Shown piece by piece: positions 2,648 through 18,529 of a stretch of DNA of 38,384 bases. The position numbers and the translations under genes are program-made. Numbering within the stretch: the first letter of the stretch is position 1; each line of letters begins with the position of its first letter. The stretch comes from Actinomycetes bacterium (GTDB lineage: Bacteria > Actinomycetota > Thermoleophilia > BMS3ABIN01). The stretch is from assembly GCA_021790115.1 (NCBI GenBank), contig JAJYIM010000020.1, positions 1 through 38,384 on the forward strand. Direction: 5' to 3'. The notes beneath the pieces were generated by a model. It did not search any database. It had not been told where the DNA came from and worked only from the letters and a program-made list of their open reading frames with translations.

Positions 2648-3700
2648 TCAAAATTGCTTGATAAACCTGAGATCGTTGTCATAAAACATTCTCAGGTCAG
2701 TGACTCCGTGCTTGAGCATGGCAATCCGCTCAACGCCCATGCCGAAGGCAAATCCCGTCACCTCATCGGGCTCATAGTTGACAAAGCCGAAGACATTCGG
2801 ATCGACCAGCCCCGCGCCCAGAATCTCCAGCCAGCCGCTCTGCTTGCAGGAGCGGCAGCCTTCACCGCCGCAGATCATGCAGGAGACATCAACCTCGACG
2901 CTGGGCTCGGTGAAAGGAAAATAGTGCGGCCGCAGGCGGATCTGGCGCTCGGCGCCAAACATGGCCTTGGCGAAGGCCTCCAGCGTCCCTTTCAGGTCGG
3001 CCATGGTGATGCGCTCATCCACAGCCAGGCCCTCGACCTGGTGGAACATGGGCGTGTGGGTGGCGTCGGAGTCGCGCCGGTAGACGCGCCCCGGAATGAT
3101 GACATAAACGGGCGGATCCTCTTTCTCCATCACCCGGATCTGCACCGGAGACGTATGAGTGCGCAGCAGCGCCTCCGCCTCGCCCTCAATAAAAAAAGTG
3201 TCGTGGAGCGACCGGGCCGGATGACCTTCGGGTGTATTTAAGGCAGTGAAATTATAATAATCAGTCTCAATTTCCGGCCCCTCGGCAATGCGGTAGCCAA
3301 GCCCGGTAAAGATGTCCTCTATCTCCCAAAGCGTCTGGGTTATCAAGTGCAGGCGGCCGTTTGGAAACGGCTCGCCGGGCAAGGTGATGTCGACGCGTTC
3401 TTCGGCCAGGCGGCGATCCAGCGCTTCCGACTCCAGCGCCTGCCTGCGCCCGGCCAGCGCCTGCTCCACGGCAGCGCGCGCCTGATTGCCAAGCTTGCCG
3501 GCGAGCGGGCGCTCCGATGGCGACATCCCGGGAATGGCGCGCAGCATCCGGGACAGCTCGCTCTTGCGCCCCAGGTGCCGGACGCGGGCAGCCTCCAGCG
3601 CCGCTTCTGTTTCCGCGGCGGCAATGTCGGCCGCCGCCTTCTCATAAATTGCCGCCAGGCCGGGATGCCGCTGCAATTGTTTTTTGAGGTCAAAGTCCAT
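2648..3700 (-). CDS. pheS: Phenylalanyl-tRNA synthetase alpha subunit
   Basis: Catalytic class II subunit of PheRS, 350 residues, a normal length. An N-terminal coiled coil (about 1-90) precedes the class II core: GPEIETDYYNFTALN, motif 2 RVYRRDSDATHTPMFHQVEG, the family cysteine cluster CMICGGEGCRSCKQSGW, and motif 3 GFAFGMGVERIAML near the C-terminus. It is downstream of the methyltransferase gene and upstream of pheT. The ATG at 3700 has no recognisable Shine-Dalgarno sequence; the bases before it are the degenerate end of a family A repeat (copy 2). Translation may therefore be weak or rely on another signal. Confidence 0.97.
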   Translation of the reverse strand: MDFDLKKQLQRHPGLAAIYEKAAADIAAAETEAALEAARVRHLGRKSELSRMLRAIPGMSPSERPLAGKLGNQARAAVEQALAGRRQALESEALDRRLAEERVDITLPGEPFPNGRLHLITQTLWEIEDIFTGLGYRIAEGPEIETDYYNFTALNTPEGHPARSLHDTFFIEGEAEALLRTHTSPVQIRVMEKEDPPVYVIIPGRVYRRDSDATHTPMFHQVEGLAVDERITMADLKGTLEAFAKAMFGAERQIRLRPHYFPFTEPSVEVDVSCMICGGEGCRSCKQSGWLEILGAGLVDPNVFGFVNYEPDEVTGFAFGMGVERIAMLKHGVTDLRMFYDNDLRFIKQF

Positions 3701-3716
3701 ACATGTTAATTGGTTC

Positions 3717-3792
3717 AGGATCTATCTCAAAAGGCCGGTCGTTGCCAAGCCGGGCGAAAAGGCCATCGGCCAGGACGCTGCTGCGAACCATC
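3717..3792. repeat. Degenerate half of a family A element (copy 2)
   Basis: Begins GGATCTATCTCAAAAGGC, the same end as the copies at 33241 and 38263. It continues as a diverged version of the left half of the core: CGGGCGAAAAGGCCATCGGCCAGGACGC compares with CGAGCGAAAAGGCGATGGGCAAGGACGC in copy 1. The right half is not recognisable. It lies immediately before the pheS start codon in the 179-bp gap between the methyltransferase gene and pheS. Confidence 0.7.
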
Positions 3793-3879
3793 GAGCTGTT
3801 GGCGCGGCCCACCTGCACAAACTCTAACATTTACGTTCAGGCGGTTCTACAATTCGCAGCGCATAAAGCTTCTGTCCGG

Positions 3880-15319: not shown

Positions 15320-15338
15320 CCGGTCGGCGTGACCGGCT
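15318..15338. terminator. Hairpin at convergent gene ends
   Basis: Perfect 8-bp stem AGCCGGTC/GACCGGCT with a 5-base loop. It overlaps the permease stop on one side and the stop of the small minus-strand gene on the other. A CTTTTT run follows 14 bases later on the plus strand, so it is at best a weak terminator by itself. Confidence 0.45.
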
Positions 15339-15492
15339 AACCGGCCCGGCTTTTTAGCTCGGCGATCTCGTCCTCGATCTCCATCATCATGAAGTCGATC
15401 TTGTGGCCGCCGTGGTTTGAGCGGACTTTTCTTAAGTCGCCCAACTCCTTTTTCAGCTCCTCGATGCGCTGCCTAAGCTCTTCGGCGTTCAT
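15337..15492 (-). CDS. Small coiled-coil protein of unknown function
   Basis: 51 residues, MNAEELRQRIEELKKELGDL then RKVRSNHGGHKIDFMMMEIEDEIAELKSRAG. It is charged and almost wholly helical, with heptad-like leucines on both sides of a central HGGHKIDF turn, so a helical hairpin is likely. The start at 15492 is fixed by AAAGGAGG six bases upstream. It lies 104 bp downstream of the Nramp-like gene on the same strand and might share its transcript. I do not recognise the family. Confidence 0.7.
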   Translation of the reverse strand: MNAEELRQRIEELKKELGDLRKVRSNHGGHKIDFMMMEIEDEIAELKSRAG

Positions 15493-15596
15493 GGCCCCTC
15501 CTTTCCAAAATCCCCTTCTTGCGGAATGAAAATATAGATGCCGGATGCCGGCAAAAAGATGCAAAGGAACTTTGAACCGAAATTGCCGCGGCCGGC

Positions 15597-16847
15597 TCAG
15601 GAGAAAAAGCTGGTCGCAACAAGCATCAGGCTAAGCAGGATTAGCGCCGCTGTGGTCACGCCCGCTACGAGGTTGTAGCGCCTGGTGTTTGCGTACTTGC
15701 CCATGATGGCGCGATCGTTAACGATTACCATGACAAAAATGAGGATGAAGGGAAGCAGAATGCCGTTCACATCCTGAGCCAGGTACATAATTTTCAGCAG
15801 TGGCAGGTCGGGGATCATGGCTACCAGGGCTCCAAAAATAACGGAGAAGGTAAACAGCCCGTGGAACCAGGGGGCTTCACGGAACCTGCGGTTGACGCCG
15901 GCCTCAAAGCCAAGGGCTTCGCAGATGGCATAGGCTGTCGCCAGCGGCAGGATGCCGGCCGCCAGCACCGATGCATTCAGCAGGCCGAAGGCAAACAGGG
16001 TGGAAGCAAAACGCCCCGCCAGCGGCGCCAGGGCCTGCGCCGCCTGGTCCGCGGTGTCAATGCTGCCACCTGTGTGAAATATGGTTGCCGCGCAGGCGAG
16101 GATAATAAAGAGCGCCACGACATCGGTAATAATCGCGCCGATGATGACCTCGGTCTTGGTGTAACGGAAATGCCTGATGGAGATGCCTTTGTCGACAACG
16201 TAGGCCTGAATAAAAAACTGGCCCCAGGGAGTGATGGTGGTGCCGATCACGGCGATAAACAGAAGGATATAGCCGCTGTTTAGCTGAAAGGATGGCACCA
16301 CTGTATCGTGAAGCGCCAGGCCCCAGTCGGGATGGGCAAGAAGTCCTGACAACACATAGGTCAGGTAAAAAGCGGAAAAAATCAGGAAGGCCCGCTCCGC
16401 AATCTTGTAAGAGCCGCGCACGACCAGCAGCCAGATGAAAACGGCGGCCAGGGGAACCGTGTAATATTTCGACGCCCCCAACAACTGGAAACCGGAGGCG
16501 ATGCCGGAATATTCGGAGATCGTCGTCGCCAGGTTGGCGACGAGCATGGCGCCCATGGCCAGCAGGGTCAGCTTCAGCCGGAAGCGCTCCCGGATAAGCG
16601 CCGCCAGGCCCTGGCCGGAGACAACCCCCATGCGCGCCCCCATTTCCTGAGTCACGGCCAGGCTGATGGTAATCAGGAGCAGCATCCAGAGCATGCTGTA
16701 GCCAAAGCGCGCCCCGGCCACCGAATAGGTGGCGATGCCTCCGGCGTCATTGTCAGCGTTTGCCGTTATCAGGCCGGGGCCGATGATGGCCAGGAATAGC
16801 AGCAGGCGTGTCTTGCCGATGCGGGGAATGACCTTCGGACGTTTCAC
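15597..16847 (-). CDS. Nramp-related (SLC11) divalent metal transporter, probably Mg2+ (NRMT type)
   Basis: 416 residues with about 11 membrane segments. Helix 1 reads GPGLITANADNDAGGIATYS. The canonical DPGN metal motif becomes DAGG with its Asp (Asp34) kept. In helix 6 the MPH motif is replaced by GTTITPWGQF. Classical Mn/Fe Nramp transporters use the Met of that motif to choose transition metals, and its loss is the hallmark of the Nramp-related Mg2+ transporters. The GTG start at 16847 is 7 bases after AGGAG, which overlaps the stop of the upstream sensor gene, so the two are coupled. Control by an M-box supports Mg2+ as the substrate. Confidence 0.93.
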   Translation of the reverse strand: MKRPKVIPRIGKTRLLLFLAIIGPGLITANADNDAGGIATYSVAGARFGYSMLWMLLLITISLAVTQEMGARMGVVSGQGLAALIRERFRLKLTLLAMGAMLVANLATTISEYSGIASGFQLLGASKYYTVPLAAVFIWLLVVRGSYKIAERAFLIFSAFYLTYVLSGLLAHPDWGLALHDTVVPSFQLNSGYILLFIAVIGTTITPWGQFFIQAYVVDKGISIRHFRYTKTEVIIGAIITDVVALFIILACAATIFHTGGSIDTADQAAQALAPLAGRFASTLFAFGLLNASVLAAGILPLATAYAICEALGFEAGVNRRFREAPWFHGLFTFSVIFGALVAMIPDLPLLKIMYLAQDVNGILLPFILIFVMVIVNDRAIMGKYANTRRYNLVAGVTTAALILLSLMLVATSFFS

Positions 16848-16856
16848 GGCAGGCTC

Positions 16857-18098
16857 CTAGCCGAAGATCTTCGGCAGTCGCTTTTTCCACTTCAGGGGCA
16901 AGATGAGGTCGATGGCGTCGTCGACCGTGATAATGCCACGCAGCTTGTTTTCCTCGTTGATCACCGGCACCGCCAACAGGTTGTACTTGGCTACCACCTG
17001 GGCAACCTCGTCCTGCGTGGCGTCGGTGTGGACGCTGATCAGGTGGTGCTCCATGAATTCTTCCACCTTCTGATCCCGGCGGGCAAGGATCAGGTCGCGC
17101 AGGGAAAATACCCCCACAAGGTGCCCGTCTTCGTCAACGACATACATGTAATAAATAGTCTCGGCGCCCGGCTCCAGCTCGCGCAGCCTGCCGATGGCCG
17201 CGCCGGCGGTCATGCCGGGCGGCAGCGCCACATACTCGGTAGTCATGATGCCGCCGGCCGTGTCTTCCTCGTAACGGAGCAGCTGCTTGACGTCGCGCGC
17301 TTCCTTGCGCCGCATGCTGGCCAGCAGTTTCGCTGCTTTTTCTTCCGGCAGGTCGGCCAGCAGGTCGGCGGCGTCGTCAGGATCCATGTTGGAGAGGATG
17401 ATCGCCGCCTTGCGCTCGTCCATATCGTTGAGCAGGGCGGCCTGAAAGTGGGGATGCATCTCCTCGACAGTGTCGGCGGCCACTTCTGCCGCCAGCGATT
17501 CCACGACCGCCACGCGTTCCTCCGGCGAAAGCTCGTTGGCGATGTCGGCAATGTCGGCGGGATGAAGCAGCGCCAGCTTGTCATGCGTGACCTGCAGTTT
17601 CATGCCGGAGGCCTCGCCGCTGACCGGCTCCACTGTTTTCCAGTCCAGTAGGGTCGGCTGCACCCGGCGCGACAGCCGTTGCGCCAGCTTCGACAACCCC
17701 AGGCGGCGGAGAATGGCGCCGCTGCCGATGTCCACGCCCACAACCCGCAGGCTGCCGTTGGCGCGGGCCAGCTGCAGGTCATTAACCCGGATCAGTTTGT
17801 GGCCCTGTGTATCGACAATCTGCTTGTCAAGGATGTCGCCTGCGAGGAAGATCTCGTTTTCCGCCGGCTCAACTTCTTCCAGCTTGTCAAGCGGAAGCCG
17901 CAGCAGGGTCTGGGACTCCTCGAAGCTGCGCACCAGCTCCCAGGGAAGCAGCATTTTTTTGCGGCCGCTTTTGACGACCAGCTTGGTTGCGGATGGATAT
18001 TTGCGCTTCAGCGACACGACGATGTCGTCCAGCGAGCCCACCGGCTGGGACCGGGAGTCATTTACCTGCTGACCCAGAAGCTTGCTTAAAAAGAACAC
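16857..18098 (-). CDS. Soluble MgtE-like magnesium sensor (PRC barrels, MgtE-N, CBS pair)
   Basis: 413 residues with no membrane segment. Domains in order: a PRC-barrel (about 1-70, FFLSKLLGQQVNDSRSQPVG), a second PRC-like unit (about 85-160, DILDKQIVDTQGHKLIRVNDLQLAR), the MgtE N-terminal superhelix (about 185-290, LHPADIADIANELSPEERVAVVESL ... ILSNMDPDDAADLLADLPEEKAAKLLASM), and two CBS domains (about 295-405, starting DTAGGIMTTEYVALPPGMT). In MgtE the N and CBS domains bind Mg2+ and close the channel. Here the channel domain is absent and the next gene encodes a permease. The start is GTG 18098, 5 bases after AGGAGG; the longer frame to 18173 is not protein-like. Confidence 0.94.
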   Translation of the reverse strand: MFFLSKLLGQQVNDSRSQPVGSLDDIVVSLKRKYPSATKLVVKSGRKKMLLPWELVRSFEESQTLLRLPLDKLEEVEPAENEIFLAGDILDKQIVDTQGHKLIRVNDLQLARANGSLRVVGVDIGSGAILRRLGLSKLAQRLSRRVQPTLLDWKTVEPVSGEASGMKLQVTHDKLALLHPADIADIANELSPEERVAVVESLAAEVAADTVEEMHPHFQAALLNDMDERKAAIILSNMDPDDAADLLADLPEEKAAKLLASMRRKEARDVKQLLRYEEDTAGGIMTTEYVALPPGMTAGAAIGRLRELEPGAETIYYMYVVDEDGHLVGVFSLRDLILARRDQKVEEFMEHHLISVHTDATQDEVAQVVAKYNLLAVPVINEENKLRGIITVDDAIDLILPLKWKKRLPKIFG

Positions 18099-18178
18099 CT
18101 TTTCCTCCTGCTGCGGGCAGCCCGCATTTCCACCGCCAAGGCAGTGCGGGCTCAGACGCCTTACCCGCATCATTCAAT

Positions 18179-18203
18179 AAAAAAACCTTCCCGGGGGAAG
18201 GTT
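18179..18203 (-). terminator. Intrinsic terminator, expression platform of the M-box
   Basis: On the minus strand AACCTTCCC pairs with GGGAAGGTT, followed by seven U. It stands between the M-box aptamer and the sensor gene, about 80 bases before the start codon, as expected when Mg2+ binding to the aptamer causes early termination. Confidence 0.85.
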
Positions 18204-18330
18204 GTGGCGGGCGGCGCCATGAGACGGCATTGATCTTTGATCTGAAGCCGAACAAGCTCCGGATTCATGCCCGGGATGGGCCCGGTCAAAATCTGCAGGA
18301 GCGCCGCACTGGCATCATCAGCCTTCCCCA

Positions 18331-18485
18331 GCTCGTCCAAGCTTTGGCACAGCGCACCGTAGAGATTATTCTCAGCCGTCTCGGGCAGAACCTTACGCCG
18401 GTAATGCCTGTTCTACCCGTTGGGGTCTTTGGACCTTTCCGGGCAACGGCCTGTATCTGCGCTGGAGCCTCACCTAACGAGGATT
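18331..18485 (-). ncRNA. M-box (ykoK) magnesium riboswitch aptamer
   Basis: The minus strand carries the ykoK-leader hallmarks in order: CTCGTTAGGTGAGGCTCC, AGATACAGGCC, TGCCCGGAAAGGTCCAAAGA followed by CCCCAACGGGTAGAACAGG, then GCGTAAGGT, and finally GCCAAAGCTTGGACGAG. CTCGT at the 5' end pairs with ACGAG at the 3' end as P1. M-box RNAs bind several Mg2+ ions and lower expression of Mg2+ importers when Mg2+ is plentiful. The aptamer is followed by a terminator and then by the sensor and the Nramp-like permease. I matched the motifs by eye; a covariance search was not run. Confidence 0.9.
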
Positions 18486-18500
18486 GGCTGCTAACTGTTA

Positions 18501-18529
18501 AAACTAGTCCTGCAGCGGTGGAAAGTCAA
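18501..18529 (-). promoter_or_regulatory. Promoter of the magnesium unit
   Basis: The minus strand reads TTGACT (18524-18529), 17 bases, then TAGTTT (18501-18506), about 15 bases before the M-box begins. The -35 is good and the -10 is weak. Confidence 0.5.

Follow-up and report, generated by a model that had tools for sequence, protein, structure and literature searches.

A PRC-MgtE_N-CBS protein as probable regulatory subunit of an M-box-controlled NRMT-type permease in an uncultured actinomycete

The window analysed here, a stretch of 38,384 nucleotides from an actinomycete genome (assembly GCA_021790115.1, contig JAJYIM010000020.1), carries on its reverse strand an M-box riboswitch followed by two genes, the first encoding a soluble protein with PRC, MgtE_N and CBS domains (hereafter the sensor) and the second an SLC11 permease of the NRMT type. 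We propose that the sensor is a regulatory subunit of this Mg2+ permease, a reading to which we assign a probability of roughly 70%; the exact direction of control and the way in which the two proteins meet are less secure than that. The proposal builds on the parts of the operon, their order and their families, on the decay of the pore in relatives of the sensor, on retained ligands of the Mg4 and Mg6 sites, and on naturally occurring proteins in which this module is fused to the ATPase MgtA.

The sensor open reading frame matches the Pfam families PRC (6.4e-09), MgtE_N (2e-29) and CBS (5.9e-22). Neither the MgtE pore (PF01769, by Pfam) nor a membrane helix was found in it, and it is therefore no MgtE channel; the five-helix pore with its aspartate (D432 in Thermus thermophilus MgtE, TtMgtE) is missing, and the score of 217.5 bits lies under the MgtE equivalog cut-off of 232.75. 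The genome's single MgtE_N domain is the one in this protein. In the AlphaFold2 model of the whole sensor (mean predicted local distance difference test score, pLDDT, 85), Foldseek recognises the cytosolic domain of MgtE (2zy9/2yvy; E about 1e-22, 40% identical). The N-terminal module modelled alone (pLDDT 89; predicted template modelling score, pTM, 0.84) forms a tandem PRC barrel resembling archaeal CdpB1/B2 (8qzo, E 2e-7) and also reaction-centre H subunits, and its membership in the PRC-barrel family is indicated by the PF05239 match as well as by the fold. The PRC barrels of reaction-centre H subunits and CdpB proteins dock on partner proteins. The first-pass annotation had described just such a soluble protein with PRC, MgtE_N and CBS domains; this holds, with the start codon most likely at GTG 18098 and not at ATG 18173, because an AGGAGG motif lies 5 nucleotides upstream of the GTG and relatives align from there.

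The C-termini of sensors encoded beside NRMT genes come in three forms, which either end without any transmembrane segment (91 proteins), retain one helix (11) or extend for 160-190 residues with 4-5 helices (36). Among the long forms, Pfam detects the MgtE pore in L034 (E 1e-16) and part of it in L045 and L048; no pore match was obtained by Pfam for L049, L071 and L090. The pore aspartate corresponding to TtMgtE D432 occurs in 0 of 47 PRC-bearing long forms but in 8 of 8 true MgtEs of this phylum; in the alignment with these eight, the long forms have lost the GNxGxQ-like motif as well. Given these losses, and since mutation at this site, Mg1, abolishes MgtE conductance (PMC5882242), the pore regions of the long forms are most likely dead and retained as anchors. 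In the sensor tree (supports from the Shimodaira-Hasegawa-like approximate likelihood ratio test, SH-aLRT, in quick searches) the one-helix form is nested within the dead-pore clade (98) and the soluble clade of the window stands apart (97), which implies that helices were lost at least twice. The series also agrees with the earlier description of an MgtE-derived sensor without its channel, and it supports an origin of the sensor in a PRC-bearing MgtE that would first have lost the function of its pore and later the pore itself.

Degenerate-pore PRC-MgtEs include L034, L045, L048, L049, L071, L083, L090, L216-L226 and others. Some are unlinked to NRMT and lie beside DacA and phosphoribosyltransferase genes; the genes around these unlinked copies (DacA, UPRT, MerR) yielded no functional hint. 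One of them, L216 (G307:C71), is preceded by an M-box at contig positions 4050-4217, and in that genome NRMT lies on another contig with a PRC-only partner.

We compared 185 NRMT loci, 105 of them within the phylum of the window and 80 in named genomes spread over many phyla, all chosen by the permease and not by the sensor. An adjacent PRC-MgtE_N-CBS gene is the rule (140 of 185 loci); four of these sensors are without a PRC match, mostly through truncation at contig edges. Where the sensor gene lies upstream of NRMT and in the same orientation (133 cases), a median of 11 nucleotides separates the two. The sensor is kept from Actinomycetota to Omnitrophota and archaea, and in Coriobacteriia-like genomes the subclades of sensor and NRMT match. 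A further 19 loci have a PRC-only gene (about 190 residues) and two have PRC with a degenerate MgtE_N; the motif (D/N)KQxVDxxGxKxxRVND is common to sensors and PRC-only proteins. PRC is the rule among sensors, which rules out a one-off addition in the lineage of the window, and no single-chain fusion of sensor and NRMT was present among the 185 loci. The survey also includes a 3,632,260-bp genome (L066) whose NRMT is about 97% identical to the crystallised EleNRMT over all 438 residues; there, a one-helix PRC-MgtE_N-CBS gene ends 4 nucleotides before the EleNRMT-like gene (L066:5024-7739, minus strand).

The PRC-only gene sits directly 3' of NRMT, with no MgtE_N gene at the locus, in L041, L043, L044, L046, L051, L053, L055, L068-L070, L072, L073, L075 and L077-L081. 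Genomes with a PRC-only partner that were checked have a dead-pore PRC-MgtE elsewhere.

The same module is found on other membrane proteins. Two genomes of the phylum (L279:1093-5043, minus strand, P0001; and L288, G241:C8:6780-10730, minus strand) encode PRC-MgtE_N-CBS-CBS fused to an MgtA-type P-type ATPase in one open reading frame of 1317 residues with no stop, and the two fusions are 87% identical. The ATPase half scores 1077 bits where the cut-off for the Mg2+-ATPase MgtA is 611, and it matches MgtA structures with E 5e-254. In large actinomycete genomes without an NRMT match, and in a few that have NRMT elsewhere, a soluble sensor gene stands directly before a gene for a DUF1003 membrane protein; this was confirmed in L266, L268, L274, L276 and L278, none of which has NRMT at the locus. 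All these sensors group in a single family that excludes true MgtE (support 87); within it, the MgtA fusion is placed close to the dead-pore forms, and sensors of the DUF1003 type fall inside the soluble clade. The notion that the sensor belongs exclusively to NRMT is ruled out by the DUF1003 pairing and the MgtA fusion. A module that occurs next to NRMT, next to DUF1003 and in covalent linkage with MgtA most plausibly serves membrane transport proteins as a regulatory subunit.

The permease begins 9 nucleotides after the sensor stop (16857 / 16847). It matches Pfam Nramp with 1.4e-95, and its closest solved structure is EleNRMT (7qia, E 3.4e-115). In a tree of 72 proteins, with 10 MntH and 5 VPY (outgroup) proteins as references and from a quick search with no bootstrap, it falls inside the NRMT clade with an SH-aLRT support of 99.8, apart from MntH and VPY. 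Canonical MntH proteins of the same phylum have DPGN and MPH, and the 185 NRMT-like proteins mostly have DAGG and APW. The first-pass annotation had noted an SLC11 permease 9 bases behind the sensor, with DAGG in place of DPGN and TPW in place of MPH, and had likened it to Nramp-related Mg2+ transporters; gap, family and motifs hold up, and the tree places the protein with NRMT and not in the Mn/Fe clade. In the alignment to 7qia the proton-path histidines of TM6 are replaced by W and I. EleNRMT itself operates without proton coupling (Ramanadane et al., 2022; PMC8806188). One myxococcal genome has a canonical MntH-type (MPH) gene near an NRMT with sensor (L171:1-1188, minus strand).

The residues with which MgtE senses Mg2+ are partly retained. 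We scored the TtMgtE sites (PMC5882242) in 100 soluble or one-helix sensors: the Mg4 ligands D91 and D247 are present in 86 and 88 of them, the Mg6 ligand D95 in 98, and the Mg5 ligand D226 is N in 60. The window sensor keeps Mg4 (D91, D247) and Mg6 (D95), with E59 changed to D and D214 to T. The positions Y170, R187 and D188, which contact ATP in MgtE (PMC5529423), are also present.

Upstream of both genes, a covariance search returned the M-box family RF00380 with 143.2 bits (gathering score 44, E 1.3e-32), covering model positions 1-169 completely; it is the sole M-box of the genome. An M-box followed by a terminator that controls the operon had been predicted from the sequence, and this stands with the aptamer boundary shifted by a few bases. 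The terminator stem reads AACCUUCCCCCGGGAAGGUU-U and is conserved in relatives with compensating changes (CCUUCCC/GGGAAGG, CCUCCCC/GGGAGG). The strand GCUGGGGAAGGCU can form helix P1 with the first strand of the aptamer (duplex energy -17.1 kcal/mol) or an antiterminator with the 5' arm of the terminator, CCUUCCCC (-17.6 kcal/mol), and the terminator hairpin alone has -10.1 kcal/mol. P1, antiterminator and terminator are mutually exclusive pairings, as in the expression platform of RF00380. The minimum-free-energy fold of the entire leader showed no clear excess stability (z -1.13), and the argument for a switch is therefore built on the Rfam match and the competing helices. The leader would work as the usual M-box OFF switch, with a dependence on Mg2+ expected from its family membership.

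Within the phylum an M-box precedes sensor-first operons in 13 of 80 NRMT genomes; in two further genomes it immediately precedes NRMT, and one has it between the two genes. The last of these arrangements is seen in L121 (3274-3442, plus strand), where the M-box does not stand ahead of both genes. In L277 (5015-5188, plus strand) it follows right after a second PRC-MgtE_N-CBS gene and faces a gene truncated by the contig end. In Clostridium pascui (L202) an M-box (3629-3794, plus strand) precedes NRMT, no sensor was detected at that place, and two fluoride riboswitches lie upstream (531-589 and 1308-1367, both plus strand).

The genome to which the window belongs (1.81 Mb, 97.6% complete) was searched for other Mg2+ importers. 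Neither the MgtE pore domain PF01769 nor CorA was found, nor an MgtA above cut-off (P-type ATPases below it exist), nor a second clear Nramp. Given these absences, the NRMT permease is probably the main Mg2+ importer of this organism. The absence of PF01769 also rules out that the sensor gates an MgtE pore elsewhere in the genome, and chance or artefact as the origin of the operon features is ruled out by the strengths of the Rfam, Pfam and EleNRMT matches.

From these elements a mechanism can be drawn up. When Mg2+ is plentiful, the M-box would fold, P1 would hide the strand GGGGAAGG, and the downstream terminator would halt transcription; when Mg2+ is scarce, GGGGAAGG would pair with the 5' arm of the terminator and the genes of sensor and permease would both be transcribed. 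The permease would import Mg2+, probably uncoupled from protons as in EleNRMT, in which case the membrane potential would provide the inward drive. The MgtE-derived half of the sensor may bind Mg2+, and perhaps ATP, and would change its shape at high Mg2+ as MgtE does; the PRC barrels would most likely attach the sensor to the permease from the cytoplasmic side and reduce the rate of transport. The M-box would thus set the amount of transporter and the PRC-docked sensor its activity, in the way that MgtE controls its own pore through its cytosolic domain, and it is plausible that Mg2+ is measured twice, once in RNA and once in protein. A brake of this kind would presumably be needed by a carrier that lacks coupling and is driven by the membrane potential. 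Mg2+ as substrate, physical contact, the brake as direction of control and the role of PRC are the steps on which this scheme would depend.

Several points weigh against a regulatory role of the sensor. In the window sensor D226 (Mg5) is N and the Mg2/Mg3 plug-helix acids have given way to a basic tail, so that sensing must differ from that of MgtE, and contact with or gating of the permease is itself a prediction. Furthermore, 24 of the 185 NRMT loci have no nearby partner (4 of them at contig edges); these losses are scattered over the tree, which means that the partner is not indispensable. The NrmT of C. acetobutylicum is functional without the MgtE fragment, and co-expression of the A. 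capsulatum pair gave no better rescue than the permease alone (Shin et al., 2014; PMC4072509), a weak test of the feedback idea, given that a brake would not show up in rescue at low Mg2+. This co-expression result, together with the occurrence of the sensor family without NRMT and beside DUF1003, might suggest that the sensor is a stand-alone Mg2+ buffer, a chaperone (listed as an alternative in PMC4072509) or a regulator of something else, such as the DUF1003 protein or a ribosome-linked process reached via PRC, and that it shares with the permease no more than control by the M-box. We regard this as unlikely: in many phyla the sensor gene closely adjoins NRMT at most loci, the subclades of the two match in Coriobacteriia-like genomes, and the module is covalently fused to MgtA, all of which favours a regulator attached to a transporter.

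It is less likely still that the permease mainly transports Mn2+, or a mixture of ions, and that the sensor responds to Mn2+. The A. capsulatum permease behaved as a Mn2+ transporter and rescued a Mn2+-transport mutant (PMC4072509), and in the window permease Thr replaces the usual Ala at the position of the soft Met ligand of TM6, a minority state shared by 38 of the 185 NRMT-like proteins in all. However, M-box control, membership in the NRMT clade, the loss of both the Met ligand and the TM6 histidines, and a 97.6% complete genome in which no other Mg2+ importer of known family was found speak for Mg2+. That the MgtE-like gene is a vestige without a present role, retained only through the shared operon, is hardly credible: partnerless loci and degenerate versions do exist, but from Actinomycetota to Omnitrophota and archaea the sensor is kept with D91, D95, D247 and the PRC motif conserved, and some pore-less lineages diverged deeply. 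A regulatory subunit of the permease thus remains our preferred reading. A broader scenario, to which we give about even odds, is that of a transferable Mg2+-sensing subunit: an MgtE would have gained PRC barrels, lost its ion path, kept the dead pore at first as an anchor and then discarded it, and today it would control unrelated Mg2+ importers, NRMT in trans and MgtA in cis, by means of PRC docking.

The arrangement of M-box, MgtE fragment and NRMT is already published, together with the feedback idea, and the window adds another case. Shin et al. (2014, PLoS Genet, PMC4072509) found nrmT behind M-boxes, with a homologue of the MgtE cytosolic domain beside most, and proposed feedback regulation or chaperone activity for this fragment; the window shares with these operons the RNA switch, the homologue of the MgtE cytoplasmic domain, the Nramp-related Mg2+ transporter and the proposed feedback role, and has the fragment adjoining nrmT, often behind an M-box, that characterises them. 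It differs in coming from an uncultured actinomycete lineage, whose nearest named relatives are labelled Actinomycetes and Thermoleophilia. That paper mentions neither the PRC module ('PRC' has 0 occurrences) nor the pore decay, and it has no PRC-only partners, no pairing with DUF1003 and no fusion to MgtA. EleNRMT (7qia; Ramanadane et al., 2022, eLife, PMC8806188) is homologous to the window permease over its full length, keeps the TM1 Asp, has likewise lost the Met ligand and the TM6 histidines, and has its own PRC-MgtE_N-CBS gene in its operon; unlike the window permease it has Ala in place of Thr, and its partner keeps one C-terminal helix, of which the window sensor has none. No mention of the operon, of CBS or of the genomic context was found in Ramanadane et al. 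(2022). TtMgtE (2zy9) shares the N and CBS domains and the Mg4 and Mg6 ligands, whereas the window sensor is without pore and plug-helix acids and has added PRC barrels. The reaction-centre H subunit and archaeal CdpB1/CdpB2 (8qzo) share the fold of its N-terminal module, but their sequence relation holds only at the level of the PRC family and their partners are unrelated. A PRC barrel together with MgtE was not found mentioned in the open literature searched. In that literature, with most subscription papers outside the search, no precedent was found for the decay series, the near-universal PRC module, partners consisting of PRC alone, the pairing with DUF1003 or the fusion to MgtA.

Table 1. 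Coordinates in the window of the riboswitch, the two genes and their parts.
Feature	Position	Strand	Basis
M-box (ykoK leader) Mg2+ riboswitch aptamer, RF00380	18320..18488	-	cmscan
P1 3' strand GCUGGGGAAGGCU, also antiterminator strand	18320..18332	-	complementary to terminator 5' arm
Intrinsic terminator AACCUUCCCCCGGGAAGGUUUUUUU	18179..18205	-	fold; kept in relatives with compensating changes
Shine-Dalgarno AGGAGG of sensor gene	18104..18109	-	sequence
Sensor gene, soluble PRC-MgtE_N-CBS-CBS protein, 413 aa	16857..18098	-	Pfam, alignment of relatives
Tandem PRC-barrel module, about residues 1-168	17595..18098	-	Pfam PRC, AlphaFold2, Foldseek
MgtE_N domain	17262..17567	-	PF03448, E 2e-29
CBS domain pair	16902..17249	-	PF00571; Foldseek
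Basic C-terminal tail PLKWKKRLPKIFG, at the place of MgtE's acidic plug helix and pore	16860..16901	-	tails of soluble sensors compared
NRMT-clade SLC11 permease, 416 aa	15597..16847	-	Pfam Nramp, EleNRMT match, tree
TM1 DAGG (canonical DPGN), residues 34-37	16737..16748	-	alignments
TM6 TPW (canonical MPH; usual NRMT APW), residues 206-208	16224..16232	-	alignments

Around the operon, a short open reading frame with a good Shine-Dalgarno sequence (MNAEELRQRIEELKKELGDLRK...) lies just 3' of the permease (15337-15564, minus strand). A putative Se/S carrier-like gene (PF11823; 19786-20034, minus strand) adjoins a gene for a SAM hydroxide adenosyltransferase (PF01887/PF20257; 20046-20855, minus strand), and both stand upstream of UPF0047 and PAP2 genes. 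PADLOC returned no match.

Altogether, the role of the MgtE-like fragment, which Shin et al. (2014) left open, has become directly testable through the series of decaying pores, the fusion to MgtA and the partner of EleNRMT. The EleNRMT transporter, its structure and a proteoliposome assay are already available, so that a test needs only the addition of the gene next door. Should the module act as a brake on EleNRMT, a carrier without coupling would gain an MgtE-like cytosolic feedback, and the gating domain of a channel would prove to be reused by unrelated transporters. The pairing with DUF1003 proteins could also offer a lead to a function of DUF1003 in Mg2+ balance.

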